DNA from: Pseudotabrizicola sp.
GTDB lineage: Bacteria; Pseudomonadota; Alphaproteobacteria; Rhodobacterales; Rhodobacteraceae
Reading direction: 5' to 3'
Length of the DNA: 36,699 nucleotides
Assembly: GCF_030684215.1 (NCBI RefSeq)
Contig: NZ_JAUXOV010000023.1
Coordinates: 1-36,699 of the forward strand
Positions 4,286 to 20,873 of the stretch are shown here, piece by piece. Position 1 is the stretch's first letter. The number at the start of each line of letters is the position of its first letter. The notes under the pieces are model-generated. The model was not told the origin of the DNA. It saw only the letters and a program-made list of their open reading frames with translations, and did no database searches. The translations under genes were made by a program, and so were the position numbers.

Positions 4286-4321
4286 GTTTTTCTCGCCTCC
4301 CCTCGCAGCCTGTTGTGCGAC

Positions 4322-5863
4322 TCAGGTCCTGGAACTGGACTTGTAAAACGGCACGCGCTCGGGTTCTGCGGTCAGATAGCCTGCGTAAAATTTTTCCACT
4401 TCAGGGAATATCTCGTGGCGCAGCCAACGGCGCTGTGCCTCCGAGTCGCTGCGTGGTTTGGCAAAAACCTCGGCGATCTGCTCCAGAATGGCCTTGTGAT
4501 CGATCCGGGTAAAGCTGCCGTCCTTGAAGATGACCTCGCCATCCACCAGCACGGCATGCACATCCTTGGCCTTAGCGCGGTAGATCATCGCGTCCAGCGG
4601 AGGGATATCCGTATCTTGATAGGGCCAAGTGGCCGTCGCGTAATCCAGCACCACGGCATCAAAGCGACGCCCCGGGTCCAGCCGCCCGATCTCGGCACCG
4701 AATGACGTGGTCATTGCGCCGTGTTCGGATGCCATGCGCAAGACCTGTGTCGCCGTTGGCACATCGGCATGATCCATTCCCGGAACGCGGTGCACCGTCA
4801 GCGCCATGCGCATTTCCTGCAACATGTCGCGGTCTTCGTTGATGCCAGCCTCGTCCATGCCCATGCCAACAGTGATGCCACGCTTTTGCAGTTCCATAAG
4901 CGGCAGAACGCCCGACCGCAGGCGGAAGTTCGATGAACAGTTGTGGCACACACAGGTGCCGGTTCCGGCACAGATCTCAATATCTTCTTCGGTCATCCAG
5001 ACCCCGTGACCAAGCGTCAGCTTCGGCCCCAGAATCCCCAGCTTTTCGAGATGCTTAACCGCTGTTGTTCCAGTACGGCGGCGCGCGTATTCCTTTTGGT
5101 AGGCGGTTTCCAGAACGTGCATATGCATCGGCATGCCGGTAGCATCCGACCGTTCCTTCATCGCCAGCAAACCATCATCCGTCATCCAGTGCAGGTTGGC
5201 CGGCGCAAGCTGGATACGCGCGCGCGGGTTGGTATTGGCCACCGTCAGTGCGTCAAACAGATCCATGAACTCGGAAAATGACATCTTCTGGCGGGCATAC
5301 ACTTCGGCCATCGGGCCTGCCAGATGGGGCGGCAGGCGGCGCACGAAATCCTCGTCTGCCTCATAGACAAAACGGTTCTGTTCGCGCACCGCATAGCAAT
5401 AAGACACCCGCATCCCAACGGCGCGATACCCGTCAAGCACACCCGAGGCCGAGGCAAGCACCTCTTGATAGGTGCCAGGCGCCCAGCCCTGAATGTGCTG
5501 CACGGTGGTCACCCCGGTCGAGATCATCTCGAACGCCGCATAAAGCGTGTCCAGCATGGGGTCGATGTCGCGCATGGTCAGACGTGCTGCAAACCACAGT
5601 TCCAGCGCAAAATCCGGCGCCCCGTGTTGCAAGGGCGTGACGCCCAGATGGTGGTGGCTGTTGACCAGCCCCGGCATCATCAGATGATTGCCATAGCGGG
5701 TTTCCGGCGCACCGGGATAGGCGGCGCGGATGGTGTCAGCCGGGCCCACGGCAAGGATCTGCCCATCCTCATGCGCCAATGCGGCATGTTCGATGATGTC
5801 GGGTTCGGTGGCGTTTTTGGCGCCTGTCACGATCCAGCGGGCCGAAGTTATTTGGACGGTCAT
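4322..5863 (-). CDS. COG0402 amidohydrolase (deaminase-like), first of a pair
   Basis: A 513-residue amidohydrolase-fold enzyme. The metal ligands are in place: H70/H72 in N-S-H-H-H-L-G, H249 in M-H-M-H-V-L-E-T, H286 in T-L-G-H-G-V-W-M and D337 in G-M-D-E-A-G-I-N-E-D-R-D. The E-T after the third ligand is the usual proton-shuttle region of deaminases such as MTA/SAH, 8-oxoguanine and triazine hydrolases. The ATG overlaps the stop of the upstream ATPase gene as ATGA, so it is translationally coupled to the transporter. It shares the unusual D-E-A metal-site motif with the next gene but differs strongly elsewhere. The two may act on successive intermediates or on related substrates. I would call it a heterocycle amidohydrolase and not go further. 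A cluster of Cys residues (C-V-C-H-N-C, about 304-309) before the D337 strand is unusual. Confidence 0.85.
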   Translation of the reverse strand: MTVQITSARWIVTGAKNATEPDIIEHAALAHEDGQILAVGPADTIRAAYPGAPETRYGNHLMMPGLVNSHHHLGVTPLQHGAPDFALELWFAARLTMRDIDPMLDTLYAAFEMISTGVTTVQHIQGWAPGTYQEVLASASGVLDGYRAVGMRVSYCYAVREQNRFVYEADEDFVRRLPPHLAGPMAEVYARQKMSFSEFMDLFDALTVANTNPRARIQLAPANLHWMTDDGLLAMKERSDATGMPMHMHVLETAYQKEYARRRTGTTAVKHLEKLGILGPKLTLGHGVWMTEEDIEICAGTGTCVCHNCSSNFRLRSGVLPLMELQKRGITVGMGMDEAGINEDRDMLQEMRMALTVHRVPGMDHADVPTATQVLRMASEHGAMTTSFGAEIGRLDPGRRFDAVVLDYATATWPYQDTDIPPLDAMIYRAKAKDVHAVLVDGEVIFKDGSFTRIDHKAILEQIAEVFAKPRSDSEAQRRWLRHEIFPEVEKFYAGYLTAEPERVPFYKSSSRT

Positions 5864-6642
5864 AGCAATTCCTGTTCCTTGAAGGCCTTTGTCACCTCTT
5901 CCGCCAGCAGTGCTTCGCAGCGGCGGGCAAGGTCGATCATTTCGGGGCTACGCAGATCGCGCGGGCGCGGGGCATCGACTGTGATTTCGGCCTTGATCTG
6001 GCCGGGGCGGGCCGTGAACACGACGATCCGGTCAGCAAGAGCCAGCGCCTCGTCAATCGAATGGGTCACCAGCAGCACGGACGCGCCAGAGGCTTGCCAG
6101 ATCTGAAGCAGATGGTCCTGCATCCGGGCCCGCGTCTGGATGTCGAGGGCGGCAAAGGGTTCGTCCATCAACAAGACCTTGGGGTCCATCGCCAGCGCCC
6201 GCGCCAATGCCGCGCGTTGCCGCATGCCGCCAGACAGCTCATCCGGTCGCCGGTCGCCAGCACCGCCAAGCCCCACCATCCGCAACAGAGCGTCAACCTT
6301 TTCTTTGCGCTCAAGGGGTGTCTTGCCGCGGATCGCCAGGCCAAAGCCCACGTTTTCACGCACCGACAGCCATGGAAAAAGCGATGCCTCCTGAAAAATC
6401 AAGCTGCGTTCAGGCGATGGTTGGGTGACCGGCAAGCCGTCAAATGTCACTTTGCCCGAGGTCGCATCCTCCAGCCCCGCCACGATGTAGAGCAATGAGC
6501 TTTTCCCACATCCCGAAGGCCCCAACAGCACAACAAATTCGCCCAAAGCCACGTCCAGCGTCAGGTTGGTGACTGCGGGCACCGGGTTTGGCCCCTTCGG
6601 GTTCCAGACCTTGGATACGTTGGTGATTGATAATCCCAGCAT
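5860..6642 (-). CDS. ABC transporter ATP-binding protein, SsuB/TauB type
   Basis: A 260-residue ABC ATPase for the importer formed with the two genes upstream. Walker A G-P-S-G-C-G-K-S-S is at 41-49, the Q-loop is in F-Q-E-A-S-L-F-P, the signature L-S-G-G-M-R-Q-R is near 136-143, Walker B V-L-L-M-D-E-P is at 156-162, and the switch His is in V-T-H-S-I-D-E-A. The S-I-D-E-A-L-A-L-A-D-R-I-V-V ending of the core is typical of the nitrate/sulfonate/taurine group. The ATG follows the permease TAA with no base between, and its own stop overlaps the next start as ATGA. Both ends are therefore translationally coupled. The associated enzymes suggest an N-heterocycle or ureide cargo; a sulfonate is less likely. 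Confidence 0.95.
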   Translation of the reverse strand: MLGLSITNVSKVWNPKGPNPVPAVTNLTLDVALGEFVVLLGPSGCGKSSLLYIVAGLEDATSGKVTFDGLPVTQPSPERSLIFQEASLFPWLSVRENVGFGLAIRGKTPLERKEKVDALLRMVGLGGAGDRRPDELSGGMRQRAALARALAMDPKVLLMDEPFAALDIQTRARMQDHLLQIWQASGASVLLVTHSIDEALALADRIVVFTARPGQIKAEITVDAPRPRDLRSPEMIDLARRCEALLAEEVTKAFKEQELL

Positions 6643-7536
6643 TTACAGCGCCCCTATGTTTGACGGACCGATCCACCACAGAACCTTGCGCTGAATAAGC
6701 CGCAGCGCCTGATCGAACAGAAACCCTGTCAGGCCGATCAGCGTCATGGTGAAGAAGACGAGGCTCGCGTTGAACGTGTTGCGCGCCATCATGGTCACCT
6801 GCCCAAGACCCGATCCCACGCCCACAGCTTCGGCGATCAAGACCACCATCCACGCGCCAAACAGGTTCATACGAAGTGTCACGAACAACCCCGGCAGAAT
6901 GGCAGGCAGGATCACCCGCAGGAATATCTGACGCTTTGACGCCCCCATCACGCGGGCCAGCTGGATGTAGTGCTTGGGCACCGCATCAATCTGCGACAGC
7001 GTCGCCAGCACCATCACGAAGAAGATCGAGATGAAGACCAGAAAGATCGCCGGCGTATTCCCGATGCCAAAGACGAAAATCGCCACCGGCAGCCAGGCCA
7101 CGGGCGAGATCGGCGCCAGCATCGTGATCAGTGGAAGGGTCAATTTGCCAAAGATGTTGAAGTAGCGGATACCGACCCCGACGATCAGCGACGCTGTGAA
7201 ACCGATCAGCAGCCCCAGAAAAACCCGCATCGACGACCACCCGATGACGCCCAGCACCGACCAGATCGATCCGCCCGTTGACAAGGCGCCGATCCGCTGA
7301 CCGTTCGGATCAAAGAACCGGAACTGGTCGGTCAGGTTTGCCAGAAAGATATGCGGTGGCGGAAGCAACAGCGGGTTCGCCCAGCCCCGCCACCAAGCAA
7401 ATTCCCAAAAAGCGACAAACAAACCGATGGACATCACGGCCCACCCGGTGGCCTGCGCCGCAGCAACCCACCGCGCTGCAAACACTGGCTTTCGCTTGCG
7501 CACTATGGCGCCCGTCTGAAAGGTATTGTCGCTCAT
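6643..7536 (-). CDS. ABC transporter permease, SsuC/TauC type
   Basis: A 297-residue inner-membrane permease with about six hydrophobic segments and the cytoplasmic EAA loop in the form A-R-V-M-G-A-S-K-R-Q-I-F-L-R-V-I-L-P, which contacts the ATPase. An N-terminal membrane segment near residues 26-48 (W-A-A-A...F-W-E-F-A-W-W) precedes a periplasmic stretch with P-P-P-H, as in the SsuC family. The ATG has an AAGGAGGG ribosome binding site that begins right after the stop of the binding-protein gene. The stop abuts the ATPase start. Probably a homodimer in the complex, since only one permease gene is present. Confidence 0.93.
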   Translation of the reverse strand: MSDNTFQTGAIVRKRKPVFAARWVAAAQATGWAVMSIGLFVAFWEFAWWRGWANPLLLPPPHIFLANLTDQFRFFDPNGQRIGALSTGGSIWSVLGVIGWSSMRVFLGLLIGFTASLIVGVGIRYFNIFGKLTLPLITMLAPISPVAWLPVAIFVFGIGNTPAIFLVFISIFFVMVLATLSQIDAVPKHYIQLARVMGASKRQIFLRVILPAILPGLFVTLRMNLFGAWMVVLIAEAVGVGSGLGQVTMMARNTFNASLVFFTMTLIGLTGFLFDQALRLIQRKVLWWIGPSNIGAL

Positions 7537-7551
7537 TCCGGGAAGCCCTCC

Positions 7552-8619
7552 TTATGCCGATTTCAGTTTGAGTCCGGCGTAAAGGTCAGCGTTTTCAGCA
7601 ATGACCGCCTCAAGCAGGCTCCAGTCCACGGCATCATCGGGCACAAGGTTCCTCACATAGCCCATGGCCTGCATTGACGCAGAGCGGTCCTTGAAGAACT
7701 GGGTGTTCAGGCGTTGGTCAATCATGATGGGCTGGCGCGATTGGGCCAGCGTCAGCGCCTCAATGGACGTTTTGTAATAGGTGCCGACTGTCTGCTCCAA
7801 GGCGGCGCCCACATCGGCTTCGGCCTGCGATTGTGCGGTCATCATGGCCTTGATCAGCGCCTTCACCGCCTCGGGGTTGCTTTCGATCAGCGGTGTGGCA
7901 GCAGCAAGAACGCAGTCGGAATAACCCGCACCGTAAAGATCAATCCCGTCCGACAGCACCGACGATCCGGCCCGTTCGGTCAGGCATTGGGTGGCATAGG
8001 GTTCAATGTGGCAGACCGCATCAATCGCGCCCGCGATGAAAGCCGCCGCCAGTTCAGGCGAAGTGTTGAAGTACTTTACGTCAACATCGGCAAAGGACAG
8101 CCCCGCCTTCACCAGATAGTCATAGGGCATCACTTCCAGCGTGTCGGCCTGGAAGGTGCCGATTGACTTGCCCTTCATATCTTCGGCCGTGGTGATGCCT
8201 TCGGCCGCCACCAGAACGCAACCCTGCACGCCCGCGCCTGCCACGATCTTGACCGGGGCACCCTGATCGACCAGCGTCAGGAAGTTGGAATACGGGATAA
8301 CCGAGACATCGACGATCCCGGCGCCAAACAGCGTGACCACATCCGTGGTGGTCGGGGCCACGACAAATTCCAGATTGACGCCATCGGCTTCGGCCAGTTT
8401 GCGTTCCTTGGCAAGGAAAATGCCCAGGTTGCAAAGGCCCGAACCATGGGTGGCCTTTACCGTGGTGGGGTCCGCCGCAAAGGCAGCGCCTGCGCCCATC
8501 AACTGCACAACGCCCGACGGCAATGCCACTGCCGCCAACGCGCCAAAGCCCGTTTTCAGAAACCCACGTCGCGAGGCTTCCATGATTTTTTCGTGTGTGT
8601 TTCCACATCTGTCGCACAT
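7552..8619 (-). CDS. Tat-exported substrate-binding protein, SsuA/THI5-like
   Basis: A 355-residue periplasmic binding protein of the NMT1/THI5/SsuA type. A twin-arginine signal A-S-R-R-G-F-L-K-T-G-F-G-A-L lies at about residues 15-28, with a hydrophobic core and a cleavage site after A-G-A-A-F-A-A. The mature part starts near D-P-T-T-V-K-A-T-H-G and has the family pattern L-G-I-F-L-A-K-E-R-K-L-A-E-A-D-G-V. The ATG at 8619 has AGAGGGG nine bases upstream, so translation should begin with the Cys-containing leader M-C-D-R-C-G. An in-frame ATG after 12 codons (M-E-A-S-R-R) has no comparable site. First gene of the operon with permease, ATPase and two amidohydrolases. The same M-C-x-x-C-G beginning recurs in the small protein at 26603, possibly by chance. 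Confidence 0.92.
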   Translation of the reverse strand: MCDRCGNTHEKIMEASRRGFLKTGFGALAAVALPSGVVQLMGAGAAFAADPTTVKATHGSGLCNLGIFLAKERKLAEADGVNLEFVVAPTTTDVVTLFGAGIVDVSVIPYSNFLTLVDQGAPVKIVAGAGVQGCVLVAAEGITTAEDMKGKSIGTFQADTLEVMPYDYLVKAGLSFADVDVKYFNTSPELAAAFIAGAIDAVCHIEPYATQCLTERAGSSVLSDGIDLYGAGYSDCVLAAATPLIESNPEAVKALIKAMMTAQSQAEADVGAALEQTVGTYYKTSIEALTLAQSRQPIMIDQRLNTQFFKDRSASMQAMGYVRNLVPDDAVDWSLLEAVIAENADLYAGLKLKSA

Positions 8620-9661: not shown

Positions 9662-10399
9662 TCAGTCTTCCCTTGCAATGCGGCGCGCCAAAGCAGGCGC
9701 AAGACCGGTAGAATGCTTGGCCAAAGGCCGCGCCAGTCGCGATTTCGGGCGCGCGCCCTGCCCGGCCAAAGCATAGGCCTGCCGCACTGCCGCCTTGATC
9801 GGGTCAACAAGGATTGCCGGCACATCATCCACCAGATCCTGCGCCAGCCCGGCGAGCGGCGCTCCGCCGAAGATGATGACCTCCGCCCCTTGTTCCGCAA
9901 CGCCCAGCGCAAGATCACGCAACGCCGCGCGCCGGGTATGCGCCACATCGCCCACCTGCACCGCCTGCCGATCATCCGGGGTGATCACCCCAAGGCAACG
10001 CGCGCCCATCCCAAGTGCGGCCACGCTGGCCATGTACCAAGGCGTCATTGCCGGGGTAAAGGTCACGATGGCAAAACGCCCGCCCAACTGGACCGCAGTC
10101 AGGATAGCAGCCTCGGCCATGCCGACCACAGGAAAATCAAACAGCTCACGCGCCGCGACAAGGCCGGGGTCACCGAAAGCCGCAATTATGGCGGCATCGA
10201 CAGGCGGCGCCTCGGCCAGCATTTCAAGGCAGATCGCCCCAGCAATCTGCGCTTCGGCCAGAGATGAGATGTAGGGAAATCCACGCGGCGCTGTGCGCGC
10301 AATAACCTCGGTCCCCGGCGGCACGGCAGCCGTTGCAAGCAAGGCCATGCTGTCGGTCATGGCCCGCGTCATGTTGGGGTTGGCAAGCAGGATCCGCAT
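9662..10399 (-). CDS. hydantoin-racemase-like protein lacking both catalytic cysteines
   Basis: A 245-residue Asp/Glu/hydantoin racemase family protein, recognised from the start M-R-I-L-L-A-N-P-N-M-T and the segments V-V-G-M-A-E-A-A and L-G-G-R-F-A-I-V-T. Hydantoin racemases use two Cys, in I-A-C-F-x-D-P and L-G-C-A-G-M. Here they read I-A-A-F-G-D-P (A74) and F-G-G-A-P-L-A-G-L (G179), so two-base proton exchange by thiols is not possible. The start is fixed by a TGATG overlap with the amidase stop. An open frame extends 40 codons further upstream but only inside the amidase gene. The paralogue at 22639-23310 keeps both Cys. The protein could be a lyase/hydrolase variant, a binding protein or an inactive partner. 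G-G-A-P-L-A-G looks like a conserved subgroup signature and does not look like decay. Confidence 0.8.
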   Translation of the reverse strand: MRILLANPNMTRAMTDSMALLATAAVPPGTEVIARTAPRGFPYISSLAEAQIAGAICLEMLAEAPPVDAAIIAAFGDPGLVAARELFDFPVVGMAEAAILTAVQLGGRFAIVTFTPAMTPWYMASVAALGMGARCLGVITPDDRQAVQVGDVAHTRRAALRDLALGVAEQGAEVIIFGGAPLAGLAQDLVDDVPAILVDPIKAAVRQAYALAGQGARPKSRLARPLAKHSTGLAPALARRIARED

Positions 10400-11739
10400 C
10401 AGCCTTGCCCCGCCAGCATTGGTGCCACATCCTGCGCAAGTGCCAACAGGGCCGCATCGGCGCCGGGTGCGGCCATGATCTGCAAGCCCAGCGGCAGGCC
10501 CGTACTGGTGTGTCCGCACGGCAGGCTGATCGCGGGCGATCCGGCATGGTTAGCTTGCGACGTGAACGCCGCATGATCGCGCGGCGACGCCGCAAGCCCG
10601 CCGATGAACCGGGGGGCCACGTCCTCGACCGGCCAAGCCGGACAGGGCGTGGTCGGCGTAATCACAAAGGGATGCCGCCCAAGAAAGGCGCGCAGCGTTT
10701 CGCCCATGCGGTGGCTGGCCTGATGCGCCTGCGCCACTTCAACCCCTCTCAGGCCAAGGCCGCGCATGATCTGATCCGCGATACCGTCGCCAAACCGGGA
10801 TGGATCGTGCCGGAACGCCGCACCATATAACGCAGCCAGTCCCGCCCATTGCAACGGCGCCACATCCGCACGGCCTGATCCCTCTGGCCAGACAGGCGCT
10901 GCTGTTTCCACCGGGTAACCCGCCCGGCGAAGGCGGTCCACCGCGCTATCGGTCACGCGCGCCACATCTGCATCCAACGGCTGATCCAGTCCAAAGTGCG
11001 CGGCATAGGCAAGCGCCGGGCGAGCGATTTGGGACATCAGGCTTTGCCCGGTCAGAACCCGCATCGCAAGCGCAATATCCACCATGTTGCGCGCAATCGG
11101 ACAAATGACAGAAATCCCCCAGACAGGTTCCTCAAAGCCCGGCCCATAGGGAACCAGATCCTGACTGGGCTTGAAGCCGATCACGCCCACATGCGCCGGT
11201 GGCCTGCGGGTTGACCCGCCTGCATCCGTGCCCAGTGCAAGCGGCGCAAACCCTGCCGCCACCGCCGCAGAGGGTCCACCCGATGACCCTCCCGGCGTCA
11301 GTGACGGATCAATCGGATTGCGTGTCATCCCATACAGCTGCGTGTTTGTGACGCCGATGCAGGCAAATTCGGATGTGGCGCCGATGCCGAGGATAATGGC
11401 ACCAGCTGCTCGCAACCGCGCCACGGCAACCGCATCCGTCGGTGCCACGAAATCTGCAAAAAGCTGCGAGCCTTGGGTGATTGCCAATCCTGCCACCCAA
11501 AGATTGTCCTTTATCACTACAGGAACCCCCGCAAGCGGCAGCAGTTCACCAGCCTGCAGACGGTGGTGAACCGCAGTGACCTCTGCCGAAGCCTGTGGGT
11601 TAAGCCGAATGATCGCGTTTAGTCCGGGATTGTCACGCGCCACGCGGTGCAGGCTTCTTGCCAAGGCATCGCCAACCCTGATGGTTCCGCTTGTCACCAA
11701 ACTGGCAATTTCGGTGGCAGTTTCGGGCAGATCCCTCAT
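10399..11739 (-). CDS. amidase signature family hydrolase
   Basis: A 446-residue amidase-signature enzyme that hydrolyses carboxamides in the cytosol. The Ser-cisSer-Lys triad is visible: K77 in V-V-I-K-D-N, the pair S152-S153 in P-G-G-S-S-G-G, and S176 in D-A-G-G-S-T-R-R-P. The C-terminal family element G-L-P-L-G-L-Q-I-M is present. I chose the ATG at 11739 because GGAG lies 9 nt upstream and the protein then starts M-R-D-L-P-E-T-A-T-E. A longer frame with a TTG at 11799 has no ribosome site. First gene of a three-gene operon, overlapping the racemase-like gene by TGATG, and divergent from the GntR regulator at 12162. The R-R-P after the nucleophile (usually R-x-P or I-R-x-P) is ordinary. 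The substrate is unknown; the context suggests an amide or ureide of an amino acid. Confidence 0.88.
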   Translation of the reverse strand: MRDLPETATEIASLVTSGTIRVGDALARSLHRVARDNPGLNAIIRLNPQASAEVTAVHHRLQAGELLPLAGVPVVIKDNLWVAGLAITQGSQLFADFVAPTDAVAVARLRAAGAIILGIGATSEFACIGVTNTQLYGMTRNPIDPSLTPGGSSGGPSAAVAAGFAPLALGTDAGGSTRRPPAHVGVIGFKPSQDLVPYGPGFEEPVWGISVICPIARNMVDIALAMRVLTGQSLMSQIARPALAYAAHFGLDQPLDADVARVTDSAVDRLRRAGYPVETAAPVWPEGSGRADVAPLQWAGLAALYGAAFRHDPSRFGDGIADQIMRGLGLRGVEVAQAHQASHRMGETLRAFLGRHPFVITPTTPCPAWPVEDVAPRFIGGLAASPRDHAAFTSQANHAGSPAISLPCGHTSTGLPLGLQIMAAPGADAALLALAQDVAPMLAGQG

Positions 11740-12161
11740 CAACACTGGCTCCAGCTCTTGGCAAACCTTTGGCGCAGATGGAGGCATGATCTTGAACAAT
11801 CCCGCACTGGCCTTTTCACAAATGCGGCGGATCCAGCGTCAAATCCCAAAGCTGCAAAGCACGCTTGCAGCAAACCCCTCAGCCAGCAACGCCGCCCGCA
11901 TTTTCCGCCATTCACGCTATGCCGTGCTGCAAGACGATAGATTGAGGATTCGGCGCGCAAACACCCCATTGGACGCCAATTTGCTGCTTTCCGGGCGGGC
12001 GGCTTCTTCCTCTGCCCAATATGCAGTCATTTTGTGAAAGCGCGCGTTTGTGCATTGCGCGCTGCAGGCACGTGTGGTTCCCGATCTGTGCTGTCGCGCC
12101 ACCCTTTAATTCTTCAGCATTGTCGCCGACCGGAATGTGAGGAAAGCTGGCTGCTCCGGGG
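11740..12161. promoter_or_regulatory. divergent control region, amidase operon / GntR gene
   Basis: About 420 bp separate the two divergent start sites. The stretch contains an inverted repeat AGCGCGC / GCGCGCT at 12039-12045 and 12057-12063 with an 11-bp spacer, a reasonable size for a dimeric winged-helix regulator. It also has an AT-richer stretch around 12021-12038. No other gene is evident. That this is the operator of the adjacent GntR protein is a guess from position alone. Confidence 0.35.
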
Positions 12162-13205
12162 GTGGCGATCAGCACCTGTTGCCATCAAGCGGAGCACGGA
12201 CTAGTCCATCAATGGACCTTTTTGCGCAAAGGGCTGTCTGGCTTGCACAAGGCTTATTTTGATATCGTCAAGGATTGGGTCAGCGGCAGCATCGCCGCAG
12301 GCCTTTTGCCGGATGGAACACGGCTGACGGTCGCAGCCGTTGCCGACCGGCTGGCGCTCAGCCGGTCGCCGGTAAAGCGGGGGCTGGAGCTTCTGACAGA
12401 GACCGGACACCTGACGCGGGACGCACGATCCGGCTACATCGTTGGCAACGGATCCTTGGCAGAGCCGGACGCAGCCAATCTCTTTACCCTGCCGCTGCCT
12501 GATCTGGCCCCGGCGACCGGTGTGTTTGTCCGCGCCGGATGGGAGCGCATTCTGGATGAAGTGGCCGAGGCAACCGCCGCCAGTATTCCCTTTGGTATCT
12601 TTCATATCTCGGAGACCGCCATCGGCGCGCATTTCGGCGTCAGCCGGACCGTCACCCGAGAAGTTCTGTCGCGGTTGCAGGAACGGGGGGCAATCGGAAA
12701 GGACAGGGCATCGCACTGGATTGCCGGGCCGCTGTCGGCCCGGATGCTGGACGATGAACATGCCTTGCGGCGCTTGCTGGAGCCCGCAGCACTGGCTCAG
12801 GCCGCATCAATGCTCCGCGCCGTGCTGCCTGCGATGCAAGAGCGATTGACAAAGGCACGCCCGAACTGCCCGCCCGACGAGATCGACCTGATCGAGGCCG
12901 ACCTGCACGACACCTGCACCTCATACCAGCCGAACCGGCGGCTTGCGGCTGTGCTGATGCACCTGCGCTCGGGCCGGCGGGTGAACCGATTGTTTGCGAC
13001 CCATGTTGTGCAGCATGACGAGGCCGCCATGCTGACCGAACACCGGCTGGTTCTGGACCATCTGGCCCTTGGCGACAGCGAGGGCGCAGCGGCTGCCCTG
13101 CGCCACCATCTGGACGCCGACCACGCCCGCACGCGTGAGCGCCTGAAGGTGCTGTCGGTCTTCACAGACCCGGTGGTGGCGCCTTATCTGACACGGGTGG
13201 GCTGA
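12162..13205 (+). CDS. GntR/FCD-type regulator with two winged-helix segments
   Basis: Up to 347 residues. A first winged helix-turn-helix spans about 34-95 (D-R-L-A-L-S-R-S-P-V-K-R-G-L-E-L-L-T-E-T-G as recognition region). A second one spans about 125-185 (G-A-H-F-G-V-S-R-T-V-T-R-E-V-L-S-R-L-Q-E-R-G). A helical ligand-binding domain of the FCD kind follows, with E-H-R-L-V-L-D-H-L-A-L-G-D and a terminal R-H-H-L-D-A-D-H. Ordinary FCD regulators have one DNA-binding domain and about 220-250 residues, so this is a double-headed form. The start is uncertain: GTG at 12162, or a TTG at 12243 with AAAGGG nine bases upstream that fits the first domain better. Its stop lies one base before the start of a signal-less binding-protein homologue. 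Divergent from the amidase operon, which it probably controls. Confidence 0.8.
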   Translation: MAISTCCHQAEHGLVHQWTFLRKGLSGLHKAYFDIVKDWVSGSIAAGLLPDGTRLTVAAVADRLALSRSPVKRGLELLTETGHLTRDARSGYIVGNGSLAEPDAANLFTLPLPDLAPATGVFVRAGWERILDEVAEATAASIPFGIFHISETAIGAHFGVSRTVTREVLSRLQERGAIGKDRASHWIAGPLSARMLDDEHALRRLLEPAALAQAASMLRAVLPAMQERLTKARPNCPPDEIDLIEADLHDTCTSYQPNRRLAAVLMHLRSGRRVNRLFATHVVQHDEAAMLTEHRLVLDHLALGDSEGAAAALRHHLDADHARTRERLKVLSVFTDPVVAPYLTRVG

Positions 13206-13206
13206 C

Positions 13207-14373
13207 ATGTCCCCAAAGCAGACCACGCGCCCCGGCCTGCGGATCATCGCACGCAGCGAGCTTGTCACCCAGCCGATCCGTGACCAGGCGGCGGCTGATC
13301 TGGGGTTTCCGATCAGCTTTGAGATGATCGATTCCATCGATGGATTGGCGCGGGTAGTGACCCGCCCTGACACCTTTGATCTGTATCACCAGTGGCACAC
13401 GGTCGATCTGATCTGGACTGCGCGCTGTATCCAACCAATCGACGTGGCCCGGCTGGATCACGGGTCGGAAATCTTGGCCGCCGCGCGCGGTCGAAGCGGG
13501 CCAAGCCGCATCATCGACACGGTGTTCGACAAGCTGTTCGTGCAGGCAGATGGCCGCCTTGGACCAGCACCGACAAACCTTCTGTCGATGCTGCCGCTTT
13601 TGCACGGGCTTGACAGTTTCGGCTATGCGCCCGCCGTCCGCGACCTTGTCGGGTCTGAGGCTGAAAGCTGGGGCTGGCTTCTGGACCCCCGGCTTCAGGG
13701 CCGCGTCGCGATGATCAACGACCCGGTGCTGGGGATGATTGAGGCTGCCCTTGCTGTTGAGGCCACCCGTGGCACTGCGTTCAGCAGCGTCGGGAACCTG
13801 ACGCTGGACGAAGTGGACGAGGTAGCCGATATTTTGCTGCACAAAAAGCGGATCGGGCATTTCAAGGGCATGTGGTCTTCGTTCGAGGACTCGGCTCGGC
13901 TGGTGCAACGCGGCACCCTGATCCAGTCAATTTTCTCGCCCGGCGTCACTCGGCTGCGCTCGCTGGGACAAGAGGTCATCGTCGGAACCCCTGCCGAAGG
14001 GTCGCGCGGTTGGCATGCGGATCTGTGCATTTCATCCGAAGCGGCGGGCGAGACGTTGGATATGGCCTATGCCTATCTGAACTGGTGGCAAAATGGCTGG
14101 GCTGGGGCCTCGGCGGCACGGCAAGGATATTACGCCACGTTTCCGGCCCGCGTGCGACAGCACCTTTTGCCCGGCGAATGGGAATACTGGTACGAGGGCC
14201 AGCCCGCGCCCCGCGCGCTCGCCGACCCCTATGGCCAGCCCAGCGTCCCCGCCGGTCACCGGCGCGAGGGGGGATCCCATGCCGAACGGATGAGCGGCGC
14301 AAGGGTGTGGAACACGTTCATGGACGAGCATACCCATATCGTGCACCGCTGGCGCGAATTTCTGTCGGCCTGA
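13207..14373 (+). CDS. PotD-like binding-protein homologue without a signal peptide
   Basis: A 388-residue protein of the spermidine/putrescine-type solute-binding fold. It is clearly a paralogue of the exported protein at 19608: N-W-W-Q-N-G-W-A-G against N-W-Y-L-S-G-W-V-G, R-Q-G-Y-Y in both, E-W-E-Y-W-Y-E-G against E-W-G-F-W-Y-E-G, and W-N-T-F-M-D-E against W-N-S-V-M-D-E near the end. It begins M-S-P-K-Q-T-T-R-P-G-L-R-I-I-A-R-S and goes straight into the first beta strand, with no hydrophobic core, lipobox or twin arginine. The ATG follows the regulator's stop after one base, so the two are co-translated. I infer a cytosolic ligand sensor working with the GntR protein, but loss of an export signal by start mis-location should be considered; no better upstream start exists because the regulator gene occupies that DNA. 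Confidence 0.82.
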   Translation: MSPKQTTRPGLRIIARSELVTQPIRDQAAADLGFPISFEMIDSIDGLARVVTRPDTFDLYHQWHTVDLIWTARCIQPIDVARLDHGSEILAAARGRSGPSRIIDTVFDKLFVQADGRLGPAPTNLLSMLPLLHGLDSFGYAPAVRDLVGSEAESWGWLLDPRLQGRVAMINDPVLGMIEAALAVEATRGTAFSSVGNLTLDEVDEVADILLHKKRIGHFKGMWSSFEDSARLVQRGTLIQSIFSPGVTRLRSLGQEVIVGTPAEGSRGWHADLCISSEAAGETLDMAYAYLNWWQNGWAGASAARQGYYATFPARVRQHLLPGEWEYWYEGQPAPRALADPYGQPSVPAGHRREGGSHAERMSGARVWNTFMDEHTHIVHRWREFLSA

Positions 14374-14377
14374 CAAC

Positions 14378-16108
14378 CTATTGCCGTGCGCCCGTGCCAT
14401 CCGCACGGATCGTCACGCCAAAATCCCGCAGGGCCGTTGCCGCCGAGATCAGCCCGTCTGCCACATCGCGCGCGACCGCACCCGGCGCGCGCGCCGCCGC
14501 ATCGCCGTATCCGCCGCCGCAGGGGCCGGTTGCAATCAACCGATCCCCCGCCTTGACGCGGGCATAGGGCACCTTGGACGGCAAGGCGCGCACGGCCCCA
14601 TCCGCCGCCACCAGCGTCAGCGAGGCCGTGTGGCCATCGGCGCCATCCTGAAACCCCCACGGCGCATGGGCGTGGCCATCGCCCTCAATGGAAAAGCCCG
14701 CATCGGCCAGAAAACGGAATTCGCGAATGGTGCCGATGCCGCCACGCCATTCGCCCGGCGCCATCGCCTCTTCGCGCAATTCATAGCGTTCGACCCGCAG
14801 CGGCACATGGCTTTCGATATCTTCTACCGGGTTGTTGCGGGTGTTGGCATAGAGCGTATCAACCGCATCCATGCCATCCTTGCCATAACGGCCACCGTAG
14901 CTGCCTTCCATGATCTCCATATGCACCCAATGGTTGCCATGGTTCAGTCCCGACAGCGCCACGACGCGCAAGTTGCCGATCCCGGCGGAAACCTGTTGCG
15001 GCACGGCTTGGGCAAGCGCTTTCATCACCGTATCAGCCAGCGCATTGCCCGAACAGAACCGCGCGATCACGGGGGCCGGAAAAATCGGATTGGCCAGACA
15101 ACCCAAGGGGGCCACAATGGTGATGGGACGGGTCAGCCCCTCATTTTGCGGAACGGGGCCGACCACGGCCGCATCCAGCAGGATAGACCTGACCGTTAGC
15201 CAGATCGCGCAATCGACGGTGCCGACCAGCGGCATGTTGATCGGCTTGTCCGGGATTTGCGGGGCTGTACCGGTCAGATCAACTGTCAGCGCATCACCAC
15301 GCACCTTGACCGTGGCACAGATGATCAGATTGCGGCGCGCTGGGTCGGGATCGTCCAGAAACCCGTCGATCCGGGTTGAGGCGCTGTAATCGCCATCCGG
15401 CACCGCGCTGATCGCGGCACGCAGGCGACGCTCGGAGTAATCCATCAGGTCTTCGGCGGCAGCTTGCAACGTGGCAAGCCCATGCTGCGCAATCAGCGCC
15501 AACAGGCCCTTGGCCCCGATATGCGCGGCCTTCACCTGCGCCTCCATGTCGCCCACAACAAGCTCGGGCGCGCGGATATTGGCGCGCAGGATGTGCCAGA
15601 CCGGGTCCACCCGCCGCCCGGCATCATAGACCTTGATCGCCTTGAACTGGAGGCCCTCGGCATAAGTGTCAACGGCATCGACAATACCGCAAGACCCCGG
15701 AGAAAGCGCCCCGATATCAAGGTGATGCGCTGTTGTCACCGACCAGCCCACCAGCGTGCCGTCATGGAACACCGGCACGGCAAAGGCCACATCGGGGCCG
15801 TGGCTGGCCCCGCCGTAGGGATCGTTGTGCATGATGACATCGCCATCGGTCAAGGCCTCGCCGCGCGCGTGCAACGTGGACAGGATGTTGCGCACATAGC
15901 CGGGGATAGGCCCCGACTGCAAAGGTGTAGACAACCGACATTCGCACAGCTGCCGACCCGTGGCATCGGTCAACGCCGCGCCAAAATCCTCGGACTCGCG
16001 GATGATGGAAGAATAAGACATCCGCATCAGCTTGTGCCCCATTTCCAGCGCGATGGTATCAAGACCGCCCTGAATAACAGCGGCGGTGACGGGGTCGATG
16101 CGGATCAT
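14378..16108 (-). CDS. hyuB: hydantoinase B/oxoprolinase family subunit
   Basis: A 576-residue HyuB-type subunit. With HyuA it forms an ATP-dependent ring-opening (or, in carboxylase relatives, ring or ketone carboxylating) enzyme. Family marks are the beginning I-D-P-V-T-A-A-V-I-Q-G-G-L, E-M-G-H-K-L-M-R-M-S-Y-S-S-I-I-R-E-S-E-D-F, H-N-D-P-Y-G-G-A-S-H-G-P-D, and the C-terminal G-x-G-G-G-Y-G-D (here G-P-C-G-G-G-Y-G-D-A). The length matches the family (about 520-600). The ATG overlaps the stop of hyuA as ATGA. Its 3' end lies 4 bp from the stop of the binding-protein homologue on the other strand, leaving no room for separate terminators. Possible substrates are 5-substituted hydantoins, N-methylhydantoin or 5-oxoproline; the neighbours favour a hydantoin. 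Confidence 0.92.
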   Translation of the reverse strand: MIRIDPVTAAVIQGGLDTIALEMGHKLMRMSYSSIIRESEDFGAALTDATGRQLCECRLSTPLQSGPIPGYVRNILSTLHARGEALTDGDVIMHNDPYGGASHGPDVAFAVPVFHDGTLVGWSVTTAHHLDIGALSPGSCGIVDAVDTYAEGLQFKAIKVYDAGRRVDPVWHILRANIRAPELVVGDMEAQVKAAHIGAKGLLALIAQHGLATLQAAAEDLMDYSERRLRAAISAVPDGDYSASTRIDGFLDDPDPARRNLIICATVKVRGDALTVDLTGTAPQIPDKPINMPLVGTVDCAIWLTVRSILLDAAVVGPVPQNEGLTRPITIVAPLGCLANPIFPAPVIARFCSGNALADTVMKALAQAVPQQVSAGIGNLRVVALSGLNHGNHWVHMEIMEGSYGGRYGKDGMDAVDTLYANTRNNPVEDIESHVPLRVERYELREEAMAPGEWRGGIGTIREFRFLADAGFSIEGDGHAHAPWGFQDGADGHTASLTLVAADGAVRALPSKVPYARVKAGDRLIATGPCGGGYGDAAARAPGAVARDVADGLISAATALRDFGVTIRADGTGARQ

Positions 16109-18183
16109 GGCTGCACCCTTTGAGTCAGAATCAGGGAACCGGCAGCGTGTACTTCAGCCTGCCAACCGGGGGGAACGACCGTGGTGGTGTCCTTTTGCAC
16201 GATCACCGCAGGGCCGGGGAACGGCTGGCCCACCGGCAAGGCCGCGCGATGGTAAAGGGCTGTGGCATAGGACGCCAGCGTGCCGTTCACCCGGAACACC
16301 GTGTCGCTGTGCCGGATCAGCGCCTGTTCCAGCGATCCCCCTTGTGCCGCATGGCCGGGGGCAAGGCGCGGCATCGCCCCGCGCCCGATCACGCGAAGGT
16401 TCACCACCTCGACCGGGTTATTCGGGAAAGCATGGCCGTATTCGGCAGCGTGCGCGGTGTGGAAAGCCACCAGCACATCCTCCATCCCTGCGGCGTCCAC
16501 CGGGCCGTCGGGGATCGGCACCTTCAGCTCATACCCCTGCCCCACATAGCGCAGATCACCGATGCGGGCATAGCTGACAGCGTTCGGCGCGATCTTGTCT
16601 GCAGCAAACCGACCTGCCAGATCGTCTTGCATGGCAGCCAGATCAGCATTGATCCGCACCAGATTGAACTGGCCCGAGGTCTGGAACAACGTCCGAACCG
16701 CATCATACTTCAGGTCAGTGACCAGCAGCCCCATGGCCGAGGTGATGCCCGGATACGGCGGCACGATCACCTCGGGGATCGCCAGCATCGCGGCCACTTC
16801 GGCCCCGTGCAGCGGCCCCGCCCCACCCATCGCGACCAAGGCAAAGCCGCGCGGATCAATCCCCTTTTGCAAGGTTCGCGACCGGATCGCATTGGCCATG
16901 TTGGCATTCAGAATGGTCAAAACGCCTTCGGCTGTATCCAGTAGCGGAAGGCCAAGGCGCGCGGCCAATGCGGCCATCACCCGCTCTGCCGCCACCGGGT
17001 CCAGCGTCATGGCGCCCCCCAGAAAGTCACCGGGCAACAGACGACCCAGCACAACATTGGCATCGGTGACCGTGGGCAAATCCCCACCGCGGCCATAGGC
17101 GGCAGGCCCCGGCACCGCCCCCGCCGACTGCGGACCAACCCGGAACGCCCCGCCGTCATCCAGATGCGCGATAGACCCACCCCCTGCCCCTATGGTGTGA
17201 ATGTCCAGCATCGGCATCAGCAGCGGAAACCCCGCAATCGAGGTTGATCGCGCGTCTGTCTCGACGATCTGACCGTCGTTGATGATGCCGATATCGGCCG
17301 AAGTTCCCCCGATATCAAAGGTAATCAACCGCGTGCGGCCAGTTTGAGACCCGACCCAACCGCCCCCCAACACCCCCGCCGCCAGCCCCGACATCAAGGT
17401 CAGCGCCGGTTTTTCGGTGACCATCCGCGCCGTGGCGACGCCGCCGTTCGACGCCATGATCCGCAACTCGCCCGTCACACCGATCTGTTTCAGCGCCGCA
17501 TCCAAGGATGCCACATAAGATCCGACCTTTGGTCCGATGAACGCCGACAGCGCCGCCGTGGTGAACCGCTCAAATTCCCGAAACTGGGGCGACAGGGAAG
17601 ACGAGGTGGTGACGAACGCCCCCGGCATTTCCGCGCGCACGATGGCTGCGGCGCGGTCTTCATGCGCGGGGTTGAGGTAGGAAAAGAGAAAGCAGATGGC
17701 GACGGCTTCCACCCCTTCGGTGGCCAGTTCGCGGGCCACGCGGCGCACTGCGTCCTCATCCAGCGGCACCAGTTCCGCGCCATCTGGTGGAATCAGGCGA
17801 CACGGCACGGTCTTGCGATGCGCCCGCGCGATCAGGGGGCGCGCCTGCCACGGCAGATCCTGTAAGATAGAGTAATGTTCCACCCTCTGATGCCGCGCGA
17901 TATGCAGAATGTCGCGAAAACCGTCGTTGGTGATCAACCCGGTCTTCGCACCCTTGTGTTCAAGCACGGCATTGGTGGCGGTCGTGGTGCCGTGCAGCAC
18001 ATACCGCACCTCAGCGGGATTAACCGTAGCCAATGCGCACAGCTCGGACACACCCTGCAACACCCCGACAGACGGATCGTGCGGTGTTGTCGGCACCTTG
18101 TGAATGACCGACTGCACGCTTTGCGTGTCCGCCAGCACAAGGTCGGTAAAGGTTCCCCCGACGTCCACCCCGATCATGATCAT
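16105..18183 (-). CDS. hyuA: hydantoinase A/oxoprolinase family subunit, ATP-binding
   Basis: A 692-residue actin/Hsp70-fold ATPase subunit. The N-terminal phosphate loop M-I-G-V-D-V-G-G-T-F-T-D-L-V is typical, followed by H-G-T-T-T-A-T-N-A, the second phosphate motif F-D-I-G-G-T-S-A-D-I-G and G-A-G-G-G-S-I-A in the middle, and M-G-G-A-G-P-L-H-G near residue 460. The ATG at 18183 has AAGGAG seven bases upstream (18191-18196 on the plus strand). It couples to hyuB by an ATGA overlap. It diverges from the polyamine-type transporter operon across a 412-bp region, so the two units are probably controlled together. ATP-dependent opening of an imported hydantoin is the likely task; N-methylhydantoin hydrolysis in creatinine breakdown is an alternative that the window does not settle. 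Confidence 0.93.
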   Translation of the reverse strand: MIMIGVDVGGTFTDLVLADTQSVQSVIHKVPTTPHDPSVGVLQGVSELCALATVNPAEVRYVLHGTTTATNAVLEHKGAKTGLITNDGFRDILHIARHQRVEHYSILQDLPWQARPLIARAHRKTVPCRLIPPDGAELVPLDEDAVRRVARELATEGVEAVAICFLFSYLNPAHEDRAAAIVRAEMPGAFVTTSSSLSPQFREFERFTTAALSAFIGPKVGSYVASLDAALKQIGVTGELRIMASNGGVATARMVTEKPALTLMSGLAAGVLGGGWVGSQTGRTRLITFDIGGTSADIGIINDGQIVETDARSTSIAGFPLLMPMLDIHTIGAGGGSIAHLDDGGAFRVGPQSAGAVPGPAAYGRGGDLPTVTDANVVLGRLLPGDFLGGAMTLDPVAAERVMAALAARLGLPLLDTAEGVLTILNANMANAIRSRTLQKGIDPRGFALVAMGGAGPLHGAEVAAMLAIPEVIVPPYPGITSAMGLLVTDLKYDAVRTLFQTSGQFNLVRINADLAAMQDDLAGRFAADKIAPNAVSYARIGDLRYVGQGYELKVPIPDGPVDAAGMEDVLVAFHTAHAAEYGHAFPNNPVEVVNLRVIGRGAMPRLAPGHAAQGGSLEQALIRHSDTVFRVNGTLASYATALYHRAALPVGQPFPGPAVIVQKDTTTVVPPGWQAEVHAAGSLILTQRVQP

Positions 18184-18595: not shown

Positions 18596-19570
18596 TTGCG
18601 CAGCGCTAACGATCTTGAACTGGTGGCCGTTTCCAAGAGCTATGGAACTGCACTGGCGGTTGACCGTGTGAGCCATCTTTTCAGGGCCGGTTCCTATGTT
18701 TGCCTTCTGGGGCCGTCGGGCTGCGGCAAATCTTCGACCCTGCGTATGATCGCGGGGCACGAGTCGGTGACAGAGGGTGCCATAATTCTTGGCGGCAAGG
18801 ATGTGGCGCACCTGCCGCCCGCCCAGCGCGGCACCGCGATGATGTTTCAGTCTTACGCGCTGTTTCCGCACCTGAACGTGCGCGATAACGTGGCCTTTAG
18901 CCTCAAGATGAAAGGCATAGGCAAGGCAGAGCGGCACGCGCAGGCCGATAAACTGCTGGAGTTGGTTGGCATGACCAGCTTTGCCGATCGTCTTCCGGCG
19001 CAACTGTCGGGCGGGCAGCAGCAGCGCGCCGCCCTTGCACGCGCGCTGATCACCAAGCCGCAAGTCCTGCTTTTGGATGAGCCGCTGTCGGCGCTGGATC
19101 CGTTCCTGCGCATCCACATGCGGACTGAGCTGAAAAAGCTGCAACGCGAGCTTGGCATTACCTTCATTCATGTGACCCATGGCCAGGACGAGGCGCTGGC
19201 CTTGGCCGATGAGATCGTGGTGATGAACAACGCTGTCATCGAACAGTCCGGCCCCGCGCGCGAGGTGTTCAACGCCCCGAAGACCGCCTTCGTCGCGCGG
19301 TTCATCGGGGGCCACAATGTGCTGTCCCTGCCCGAAGGCCGCTTTGCCGTGCGCGCAGACGAGGTGCGCCTGGTGGTACATGGCACCCCGGCCATTGTGA
19401 CCGCCATCGAATATCAGGGCGCGCACGTTGCGATGACCGGTCGTATTGCGGGCGATCAGGACGTTTTGGCGCTGATCCCCGAGTCGGTGTTTTTTGCCGA
19501 CCCCAAGACCCTTGGCGACACCGTCACGCTCGCCTGGGACGAAACGAGGGCACATCGCCTTCAAGGCTGA
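18596..19570 (+). CDS. ABC transporter ATP-binding protein, PotA type
   Basis: A 324-residue ATPase of the spermidine/putrescine importer group. It has Walker A G-P-S-G-C-G-K-S-S-T (about 40-49), Q-loop M-M-F-Q-S-Y-A-L-F-P-H-L, signature L-S-G-G-Q-Q-Q-R-A-A-L-A-R-A-L, Walker B V-L-L-L-D-E-P-L-S-A-L-D and the switch H in H-V-T-H-G-Q-D-E-A. The C-terminal regulatory domain after about residue 240 is shorter than in PotA (usual total 350-380). The start is a TTG preceded by a CGGGGG run 8-9 bases upstream; no ATG is close. First gene of a long plus-strand operon running through the hydantoin enzymes, so its cargo is likely a hydantoin, dihydropyrimidine or carbamoyl amino acid. Confidence 0.92.
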   Translation: MRSANDLELVAVSKSYGTALAVDRVSHLFRAGSYVCLLGPSGCGKSSTLRMIAGHESVTEGAIILGGKDVAHLPPAQRGTAMMFQSYALFPHLNVRDNVAFSLKMKGIGKAERHAQADKLLELVGMTSFADRLPAQLSGGQQQRAALARALITKPQVLLLDEPLSALDPFLRIHMRTELKKLQRELGITFIHVTHGQDEALALADEIVVMNNAVIEQSGPAREVFNAPKTAFVARFIGGHNVLSLPEGRFAVRADEVRLVVHGTPAIVTAIEYQGAHVAMTGRIAGDQDVLALIPESVFFADPKTLGDTVTLAWDETRAHRLQG

Positions 19571-19607: not shown

Positions 19608-20873
19608 ATGAGCAAGATGCGTTACAGCCGTCGAAACATCCTCAAAGGCGGTGCCGCCGCCGTTGCAGCAAGTGCATTCCCGGCCCCGATGATCTGGGCA
19701 CAGGACATCAAGAATGTCGTGCTGCGTCAGGCCGGCACCGGGGTTTCGGCTTTCAACGAAGTGGCGGCCAAGGTCAAGGAAGACCTTGGTTTTACCTTGG
19801 AAATGACAGCGCTTGATTCAGACGCGGTGACCCAGCGCGCGGCAACCCAGCCCGACAGCTATGACATTGCCGACATTGAATACTGGATCTGCAAAAAGGT
19901 CTGGCCGACAGGCAACCTGCAGGCGATGGATATCAGCAAGATCACAAACTACGACAAGATTGCCGGCACCTTCCGCGATGGCAAGCTGACCCCCGACAGC
20001 GTGATCGCCCAAGGCACCGCACCGCACACCGTTGGCTTCGTCGAAGGGCCGGGATCTACCACGTTCTCGACGCAGGATTCGGGCTGGATGACCTTGATCC
20101 CGACGATCTACAACGCCGATACGCTGGGTATCCGCCCTGACCTGATTGGTCGCCCGATCGAGTCCTGGGCGGAACTTCTGAACCCCGAATTCAAGGGCAA
20201 AGCGTCCATTCTCGACATCTCGTCCATCGGGATCATGGACATGGCGATGGTCTGCGAGGCGATGGGAGAAATCCAATACGCCGACAAGGGCAACATGACC
20301 ACGGACGAGATCGACAAGACCATCGGTATCTTCATGGAAGCCAAGAAAGCCGGGCAATTCCGCGCGTTCTGGAAATCCTTCGATGAATCGGTGAACCTGA
20401 TGGCATCGGGCGAAGTGGTGATCCAGTCGATGTGGTCCCCGGCGATCACTGCCGTCAAGGCGCAAGGCGTGCCATGTGTTTATCAGCCGCTCAAAGAAGG
20501 CTATCGCAGCTGGGGCGGCGGGATCGGCCTGTCGGCCGGCTTAAGCGGTCTGCCGCTGGATGCGGCTTACGAATACATCAACTGGTATCTCTCGGGCTGG
20601 GTCGGTGGGTTCCTGATGCGTCAGGGCTATTATTCGGCGGTTCCGGAAACCTCCAAGCTGTTCATGTCGGAAGACGAATGGGGCTTCTGGTACGAAGGCA
20701 AGGCCGCGACGGGCGATATCGTCAGCCCCGGTGGCACCGTCATCGAACAGGCGGGCGCGGTGCGCGATGGCGGAAGCTTCCTTGACCGGATGGGCAAAGT
20801 TGCCTGCTGGAACTCCGTCATGGATGAAAACCAGTACATGGTCCGCAAGTGGAATGAGTTCGTCGCAGCCTGA
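19608..20873 (+). CDS. Tat-exported PotD-like substrate-binding protein
   Basis: A 421-residue periplasmic binding protein. The twin-arginine signal is R-Y-S-R-R-N-I-L-K-G-G (residues 5-15), then an Ala-rich core and cleavage near M-I-W-A-Q-D. The start ATG at 19608 has GTGAGGG eight bases upstream. The mature part is longer than E. coli PotD (about 348 in total) and carries many Trp/Tyr residues in the C-terminal lobe (W-G-F-W-Y-E-G). It lies 37 bp after the ATPase gene and 71 bp before the first permease, and that gap holds a GC-rich hairpin. A cytosolic paralogue is found at 13207-14373, which suggests that one ligand is read both outside and inside the cell. Confidence 0.93.
   Translation: MSKMRYSRRNILKGGAAAVAASAFPAPMIWAQDIKNVVLRQAGTGVSAFNEVAAKVKEDLGFTLEMTALDSDAVTQRAATQPDSYDIADIEYWICKKVWPTGNLQAMDISKITNYDKIAGTFRDGKLTPDSVIAQGTAPHTVGFVEGPGSTTFSTQDSGWMTLIPTIYNADTLGIRPDLIGRPIESWAELLNPEFKGKASILDISSIGIMDMAMVCEAMGEIQYADKGNMTTDEIDKTIGIFMEAKKAGQFRAFWKSFDESVNLMASGEVVIQSMWSPAITAVKAQGVPCVYQPLKEGYRSWGGGIGLSAGLSGLPLDAAYEYINWYLSGWVGGFLMRQGYYSAVPETSKLFMSEDEWGFWYEGKAATGDIVSPGGTVIEQAGAVRDGGSFLDRMGKVACWNSVMDENQYMVRKWNEFVAA

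Follow-up and report, generated by a model that had tools for sequence, protein, structure and literature searches.

RESULTS

Genetic organization of the locus

What is a transport-type binding protein without an export signal doing next to the gene of a transcription factor? The question is raised by a locus of Pseudotabrizicola sp. (assembly GCF_030684215.1, contig NZ_JAUXOV010000023.1), of which a stretch of 36,699 nucleotides, hereafter the window, was analyzed. According to the original prediction, a GntR-type gene is followed after one base by that of a PotD-like protein with no signal peptide, and the two products form a two-part ligand-sensing unit. Pfam and Foldseek searches and inspection of the N terminus by eye bore out this gene arrangement. 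The longest ORF of the regulator, from GTG 12162 to 13205, ends one base ahead of the ORF of a 388-residue protein (13207-14373), both on the plus strand. We judge TTG 12243 to be a more likely regulator start than GTG 12162, because an AAGGG sequence is seen by eye 9 nt ahead of it and it matches the N termini of homologues.

The regulator matched the Pfam families GntR (two stretches; 47.6 bits, cut-off 27) and FCD (38.3 bits, cut-off 24.3), and no ANTAR match was listed for it. GntR regulators of the FCD subfamily usually have a single, N-terminal winged helix. The window regulator departs from that layout by an extra N-terminal winged helix, as its two GntR stretches indicate; the model of a natural fusion protein described below also has two winged helices. 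Two GntR stretches are present in all five linked regulators that were run through Pfam (window, L005, L037, L040, and L055); the remaining ones were compared by alignment alone.

The downstream protein begins with MSPKQTTRPGLRIIARS, in which no hydrophobic or twin-arginine stretch is seen; like all export assignments in this work, this one was made by eye and not with a trained predictor. No Pfam or NCBIfam match was obtained at E ≤ 0.001. The AlphaFold2 model (pLDDT, 92.3; pTM, 0.90) predicts an intact two-lobed fold of the PotD/PotF type, with YdcS, PotD, and PotF as Foldseek matches (best E, 7.1e-17; TM, 0.71 by query), and as judged by eye the periplasmic export typical of that type is missing. 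The binding protein is under purifying selection: comparison of the window with L041 gave Ka/Ks values of 0.060 for the binding protein and 0.078 for the regulator, and six binding-protein pairs ranged from 0.03 to 0.16. The protein had also been called a paralogue of the Tat-exported binding protein encoded at 19608. The relationship stands (31% identity; E, 6.7e-64), as a distant one: a recent local duplication as the origin of the two was rejected, since a tree (see below) places them in separate groups.

Residues invariant in 41 proteins of the putative sensor branch include D136, S154, W155, R267, W269, R305, and Y309, and W70 is nearly so; an EG-x-R-x-W motif is also kept in the transport paralogue. 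Aligned by profile with PotF, the protein has the tryptophan in register, lacks the acidic residue two positions further along, and has an additional arginine; this pattern hints that the ligand may not be a polyamine.

The predicted products of the surrounding genes (Table 1) indicate a setting of hydantoin-type catabolism, and the neighboring hydantoinase-type genes suggest a ureide or hydantoin-like ligand. The hydantoinase A and B genes are convergent with the pair, and the ABC importer of the window has its own exported binding protein, the 19608 product. Upstream of the regulator gene lies a palindrome of 7 + 11 + 7 bases, which was not found shared with relatives. A search of 14 regions upstream of regulator loci (17, minus the near-duplicates L044, L054, and L048) yielded no trusted common operator; the exact inverted repeat seen most often, a half site rich in GC, occurred at 3 loci, with a maximum of 2 in 30 shuffles. 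Between the two divergent window regions, the best common stretch was 12 of 14 bases, compared with 11 to 12 in shuffles.

Elsewhere, at 2762-8619, the window has another ABC system, made up of an NMT1-type binding protein, a permease, and an ATPase; together with two amidohydrolases, it adjoins genes of the Asp/Glu-racemase type.

Table 1. Predicted features of the window and loci of exported relatives
Feature	Position	Strand	Evidence
Amidase, divergent from the regulator (listed ORF)	10399..11799	-	Pfam Amidase
Divergent promoter region	11800..12242	.	Palindrome 12039-12063
GntR/FCD regulator with two winged-helix domains	12243..13205	+	Pfam; NCBIfam profiles on both HTH regions; alignment of 57 relatives
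PotD/PotF-fold binding protein without export signal, proposed cytosolic ligand sensor	13207..14373	+	N terminus by eye; fold; fusion and linkage in relatives
Hydantoinase B/oxoprolinase-type subunit	14378..16108	-	Pfam PF02538; caprolactamase beta-like, below cut-off
Hydantoinase A/oxoprolinase-type subunit	16105..18183	-	Pfam PF01968 and PF05378
ABC importer ATPase, PotA-like	18596..19570	+	Pfam ABC_tran and TOBE_2
Tat-exported transport binding protein, distant paralogue of 13207-14373	19608..20873 (ORF from 19494)	+	Pfam TAT_signal and SBP_bac_8; 31% identity
Two ABC permeases	20945-21796 and 21800-22639	+	Pfam BPD_transp_1
Racemase	22639-23310	+	Pfam
Carbon-nitrogen hydrolase	23295-24230	+	Pfam
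D-hydantoinase/dihydropyrimidinase	24234-25688	+	Pfam; TIGR02033, 559 bits (cut-off 393)
Exported kinase/GGDEF-linked loci: L061, L065-L070, L075, L077-L079, L082, L089, L091, L092, L099, L101, L102, L104, L110-L112, L114, L115, L117-L120			

Distribution and linkage of the gene pair

Within the same family, 52 of 198 genomes matched the binding protein at E ≤ 1e-40. N termini were read at 32 loci, comprising the window genome and same-family matches: 7 (L001, L002, and L006 to L010) lack a signal, and 25 are of the Tat-like exported type (L004 starts inside the protein, and its N terminus was read separately). Across the class, the cytosolic type is sparse: of 385 genomes drawn evenly from it, 30 matched the fusion protein at E ≤ 1e-70, and the best place in each was signal-less only in the window genome and in G293, where the regulator lies 37 bases from the signal-less binding protein in convergent orientation.

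The pair turned out to be conserved far outside this strain. Genera carrying such proteins include Rhizobium, Pseudomonas, Burkholderia, Paracoccus, and Methylobacterium. A scan of named genomes gave 550 confirmed relatives, of which the best 80 were taken and all 80 N termini read: 52 are signal-less, an uneven sample in which many are close Pseudomonas or Rhizobium strains, and 28 have Tat-like export signals. Seven loci (L036, L052, L064, L071, L087, L095, and L108) were classed as signal-less by eye, the automatic exported flag having come from frames that start too far upstream or are cut. A regulator, counted at a BLAST score of at least 60 bits, was present in the flanks of 42 of the 52 signal-less relatives, 41 times as a gene and once as a fusion; 22 of these regulators lie within 350 bases of the binding protein, 17 within 8 kb, and 2 further away. 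Only part of the regulator is present, at the end of a contig or flank, in L050, L060, and L063, and L041 and L103 start at the end of a contig. Of the 10 remaining relatives among the 52, nine had their genomes searched, and the regulator is encoded in all nine (E ≤ 1.5e-65), the tenth (L087) being outside the search. In L072, L080, L106, L107, L113, and L116 the coordinates put it some 10 kb away from the binding protein, at the end of the flank or slightly past it, if the numbered contig is the named one; in L059, L071, and L100 it is on a different contig, where its neighbors are genes of the same kind of cluster.

Among 165 plasmid records that matched the binding protein, six were opened: a GntR gene adjoins the signal-less protein in Agrobacterium MWF001, Paracoccus AK26, and Paraburkholderia BN5, is at the far end of the cluster in Klebsiella, and lies about 10 kb away in Rhizobium johnstonii 3841; on a Halomonas plasmid that has no annotation, the distance is 4.7 kb. 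On plasmids the binding protein is annotated as "extracellular solute-binding protein," "hypothetical protein," or "signal peptide prediction."

Gene order varies. The regulator precedes the binding protein in the window and at most hydantoinase loci; the order is reversed in a second pair of the window genome (on C30) and in L064, L074, L040, and L172; the genes are convergent in L171 and G293, at opposite cluster ends in Pseudomonas and Rhizobium, and fused in L055. Linkage kept through such rearrangement argues for function rather than inertia. The second pair of the window genome (L005; G000:C30:42000-58000) stands beside ABC importer genes and others that we take to be kipI, kipA, and a biotin carboxylase gene. 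At eighteen loci, mostly of Pseudomonas and also of Klebsiella, Halomonas, Paraburkholderia, and Brenneria, the flanks contain an MFS gene and nothing that matches the ABC genes of the reference set, so that transport becomes a weaker explanation for why the protein is kept.

Searching the 198 family genomes in the reciprocal direction gave 12 regulator-like places, spread over 10 genomes. Seven share a cluster with a signal-less binding protein, and five have no such protein in the stretch read. Scored against the window regulator, the unlinked five reached 106 to 124 bits and overlapped the weakest linked ones (116 to 119 bits); scored against the best of four reference regulators, they reached 122 to 134 bits, and the linked ones of the same set at least 163. 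The regulator type is thus broader than the partnership. Of the FCD regulators at L164 to L168, which are related to the linked type and have no binding protein in the stretch read, four of the five stand beside a dehydrogenase-like gene.

We aligned 52 linked regulators, a different set from the 52 signal-less loci. A C-terminal LKVLS motif is common among them (L328 in 46/52, K329 in 46/52, and S332 in 44/52), and K329 and S332 are found in none of the five unlinked regulators. In the FCD domain, His249 is kept in 41 of the 52 and replaced in 11; His294 is kept in 42, replaced in 9, and aligned with a gap in 1. Neither is replaced in the five unlinked regulators, a small control with shared ancestry. 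The window regulator has kept these histidines, so its own FCD domain could still bind a ligand or metal.

A natural fusion of regulator and binding protein

L055 (JANYIH010000310.1), from a Hyphomicrobiales MAG, encodes in a single 745-residue frame (1797-4034) two GntR stretches, an FCD domain, and the binding protein, and the locus also has a hydantoinase A gene. By eye, the linker is basic and has no in-frame ATG, GTG, or TTG ahead of the first strand of the binding protein. The predicted model has a pair of winged helices, then a helical FCD part, and, after a linker of low confidence (around 334-363), the binding protein; with a pTM of 0.55, the orientation and docking of its domains are tentative. 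The fusion is one case from one MAG, with no second found at the best places of the 30 matching genomes among the 385 of the class. The occurrence of regulator and binding protein as one chain points to a cytosolic partnership, in keeping with the two-part unit proposed at the outset.

Exported relatives and the origin of the signal-less branch

Each of the 28 exported relatives among the best 80 of 550 has, within 2.5 kb, a BLAST match of the kinase-, GGDEF-, or receiver-like type, and its closest kinase or GGDEF frame is at most 90 bases away or overlaps (in L066 and L111 via long overlapping frames). Some of the scores are modest (57 bits in L079); Pfam analysis of the immediate downstream gene of five of these loci identified four kinases and one GGDEF protein. 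No regulator was detected at 60 bits or more in the flanks of any of the 28, L117 having a weaker GntR match. Conversely, one of 59 signal-less loci checked, L063, has a kinase-like match, on the opposite strand and 1.1 kb away. The branch thus looks like one of receptors.

Alteromonadaceae, Planctomycetota, and Desulfobulbaceae are among the groups in which exported binding proteins, sister to the cytosolic group, occur beside histidine-kinase- or GGDEF-like genes.

A 115-row tree was built by a quick method with midpoint rooting from 66 signal-less proteins, 28 that are kinase-linked, and 21 transport proteins of our choosing; it resolved three groups by class with the fewest possible changes (2). 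SH-aLRT support was 100 for the signal-less and kinase-linked proteins together, 100 for the kinase-linked group, and 87 for the signal-less group. The closest homologues of the window protein lack export signals: all 66 signal-less rows fall on one side of one branch. This result and the conservation of the pair beyond the strain both favor the original prediction. The putative receptor branch stands apart from the sampled transport proteins. On balance, we lean toward a single receptor lineage that split from ABC-transport binding proteins and is employed on either side of the membrane, together with histidine kinases and diguanylate cyclases on the outside and as the separate or fused input module of a double-winged-helix GntR regulator on the inside. 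A transport-type fold would thus have become the ligand-sensing half of a DNA-binding switch for the catabolism of cyclic amides, imides, or ureides.

DISCUSSION

We consider it probable that the 13207 protein is a cytosolic ligand receptor that forms a signaling complex with the GntR/FCD regulator encoded upstream of it, and that ligand binding alters the hold of this complex on the divergent promoters. In such a mechanism, the imported substrate of the hydantoin-like pathway, or one of its early intermediates, would close the cleft of the binding protein. The closed cleft would change or break the contact with the regulator, perhaps at the conserved C-terminal LKVLS tail, and the altered contact would shift the regulator's hold on the divergent catabolic promoters. 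The ligand could release the regulator, as in NasS-NasT, or lock it allosterically, and the regulator could act as a repressor or an activator.

The binding protein might instead be a carrier that passes the imported compound to cytosolic hydrolases or buffers it, with no regulatory role. Its presence in catabolic clusters at the loci opened with annotation would fit such a role, as would many Pseudomonas and Rhizobium loci in which its gene follows that of a CobW GTPase with a 4-base overlap, far from the regulator. That the gene in those clusters is coupled to the CobW GTPase gene and not to the regulator counts against a sensor. A carrier nevertheless seems unlikely to us in view of the fusion in L055, the kinase- or GGDEF-like genes beside all 28 exported sisters, and the regulator itself, which is present in the flanks of most signal-less relatives (42 of the 52 among the best 80 of 550) and encoded in all nine further genomes.

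A somewhat less likely reading is that ligand sensing falls to the FCD domain of the regulator itself and that the binding protein is a bystander kept for another reason. FCD domains bind ligands or metals in other regulators, and most linked regulators have kept His249 and His294. Both positions are nevertheless replaced in a minority of the linked regulators and in none of the small, ancestrally related unlinked control, and a bystander would hardly be linked to the regulator as it is, or fused with it. Least probable of all, and by our estimate very improbable, is a decaying or cryptically exported transport protein, one that lost its signal recently or is exported piggy-back on a Tat partner. 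Its distant paralogy to a Tat-exported transporter subunit is what such a history would leave; yet the 66 signal-less rows share one side of one branch, the Ka/Ks values of all six pairs are low, and the protein is kept at the 18 loci with an MFS gene and no ABC match. Judging from the fusion, moreover, the export of a chain that starts with DNA-binding domains is implausible.

The original prediction knew of no described system of this exact design. We found none with a GntR/FCD regulator: among the matches listed in our literature search, which covered titles and the beginnings of abstracts and had most subscription journals outside its scope, no GntR regulator with a cytosolic binding protein appeared. 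The kind of system, in contrast, is known with RNA-binding regulators, as one report describes for NasS-NasT and AmiC-AmiR (PMC3795266). In nitrate assimilation of Paracoccus denitrificans and others, NasS, a cytosolic, signal-less relative of NrtA, forms a heterotetramer with the co-encoded NasT that is broken by nitrate or nitrite, according to the same text (PMC3795266). In aliphatic amide catabolism of Pseudomonas aeruginosa, the amide-binding protein AmiC acts on the co-encoded AmiR, as stated in two papers (PMC3795266, PMC3369936). A survey of binding-protein repertoires cites AmiC-AmiR and mentions single-domain proteins in the cytosol that have other functions (PMC9602780).

The pair described here has two traits of these systems, a signal-less homologue of a transport binding protein and conserved co-encoding with a regulator, and differs from them in the regulator, which combines GntR and FCD domains and is not an ANTAR antiterminator. 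NasT is such an RNA-binding antiterminator, whereas a DNA-binding type is predicted here, and the PotD/PotF-type fold sets the binding protein apart from the NrtA-related NasS, as the latter is described. AmiR, too, is an antiterminator. AmiC belongs to another class of binding proteins than the PotD/PotF type. By analogy, the pair would be a variant of a known design, with the sensing principle in common and different classes of regulator and binding protein.

Two other kinds of system are close. Exported binding proteins with a histidine kinase or diguanylate cyclase, sister in the tree, are a probable receptor use of the same lineage, and differ by their Tat-like signal and membrane-type transducer from a protein with a cytosolic site and a GntR regulator. 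With the GntR FadR/FCD subfamily, for several members of which solved structures exist, the window regulator shares the winged helix and the FCD domain; it is set apart by the extra N-terminal winged helix, the LKVLS tail found in most linked members, and the linked or fused binding protein.

If our reading is correct, a DNA-binding member joins a sensing design known to us from RNA antiterminators, and annotation with transport names conceals a probable regulatory family. The natural fusion would be a single-chain, possibly ligand-responsive DNA-binding protein that is directly testable.

Two minor observations concern the relatives. The locus L063, titled Mycobacterium sp. KBS0706, is very close to the Inquilinus limosus locus L060, and its organism label looks wrong. 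At L035 (6694-8953), L037 (3834-8996), and L038 (347-2507), the signal-less binding protein is accompanied by a polysaccharide-deacetylase-like protein, a protein of about 100 residues (two were run through Pfam, neither with a match), and a GTPase of the CobW type; as an idea, this set might possibly represent a cyclic imide hydrolase that depends on a metal, together with the chaperone for that metal.
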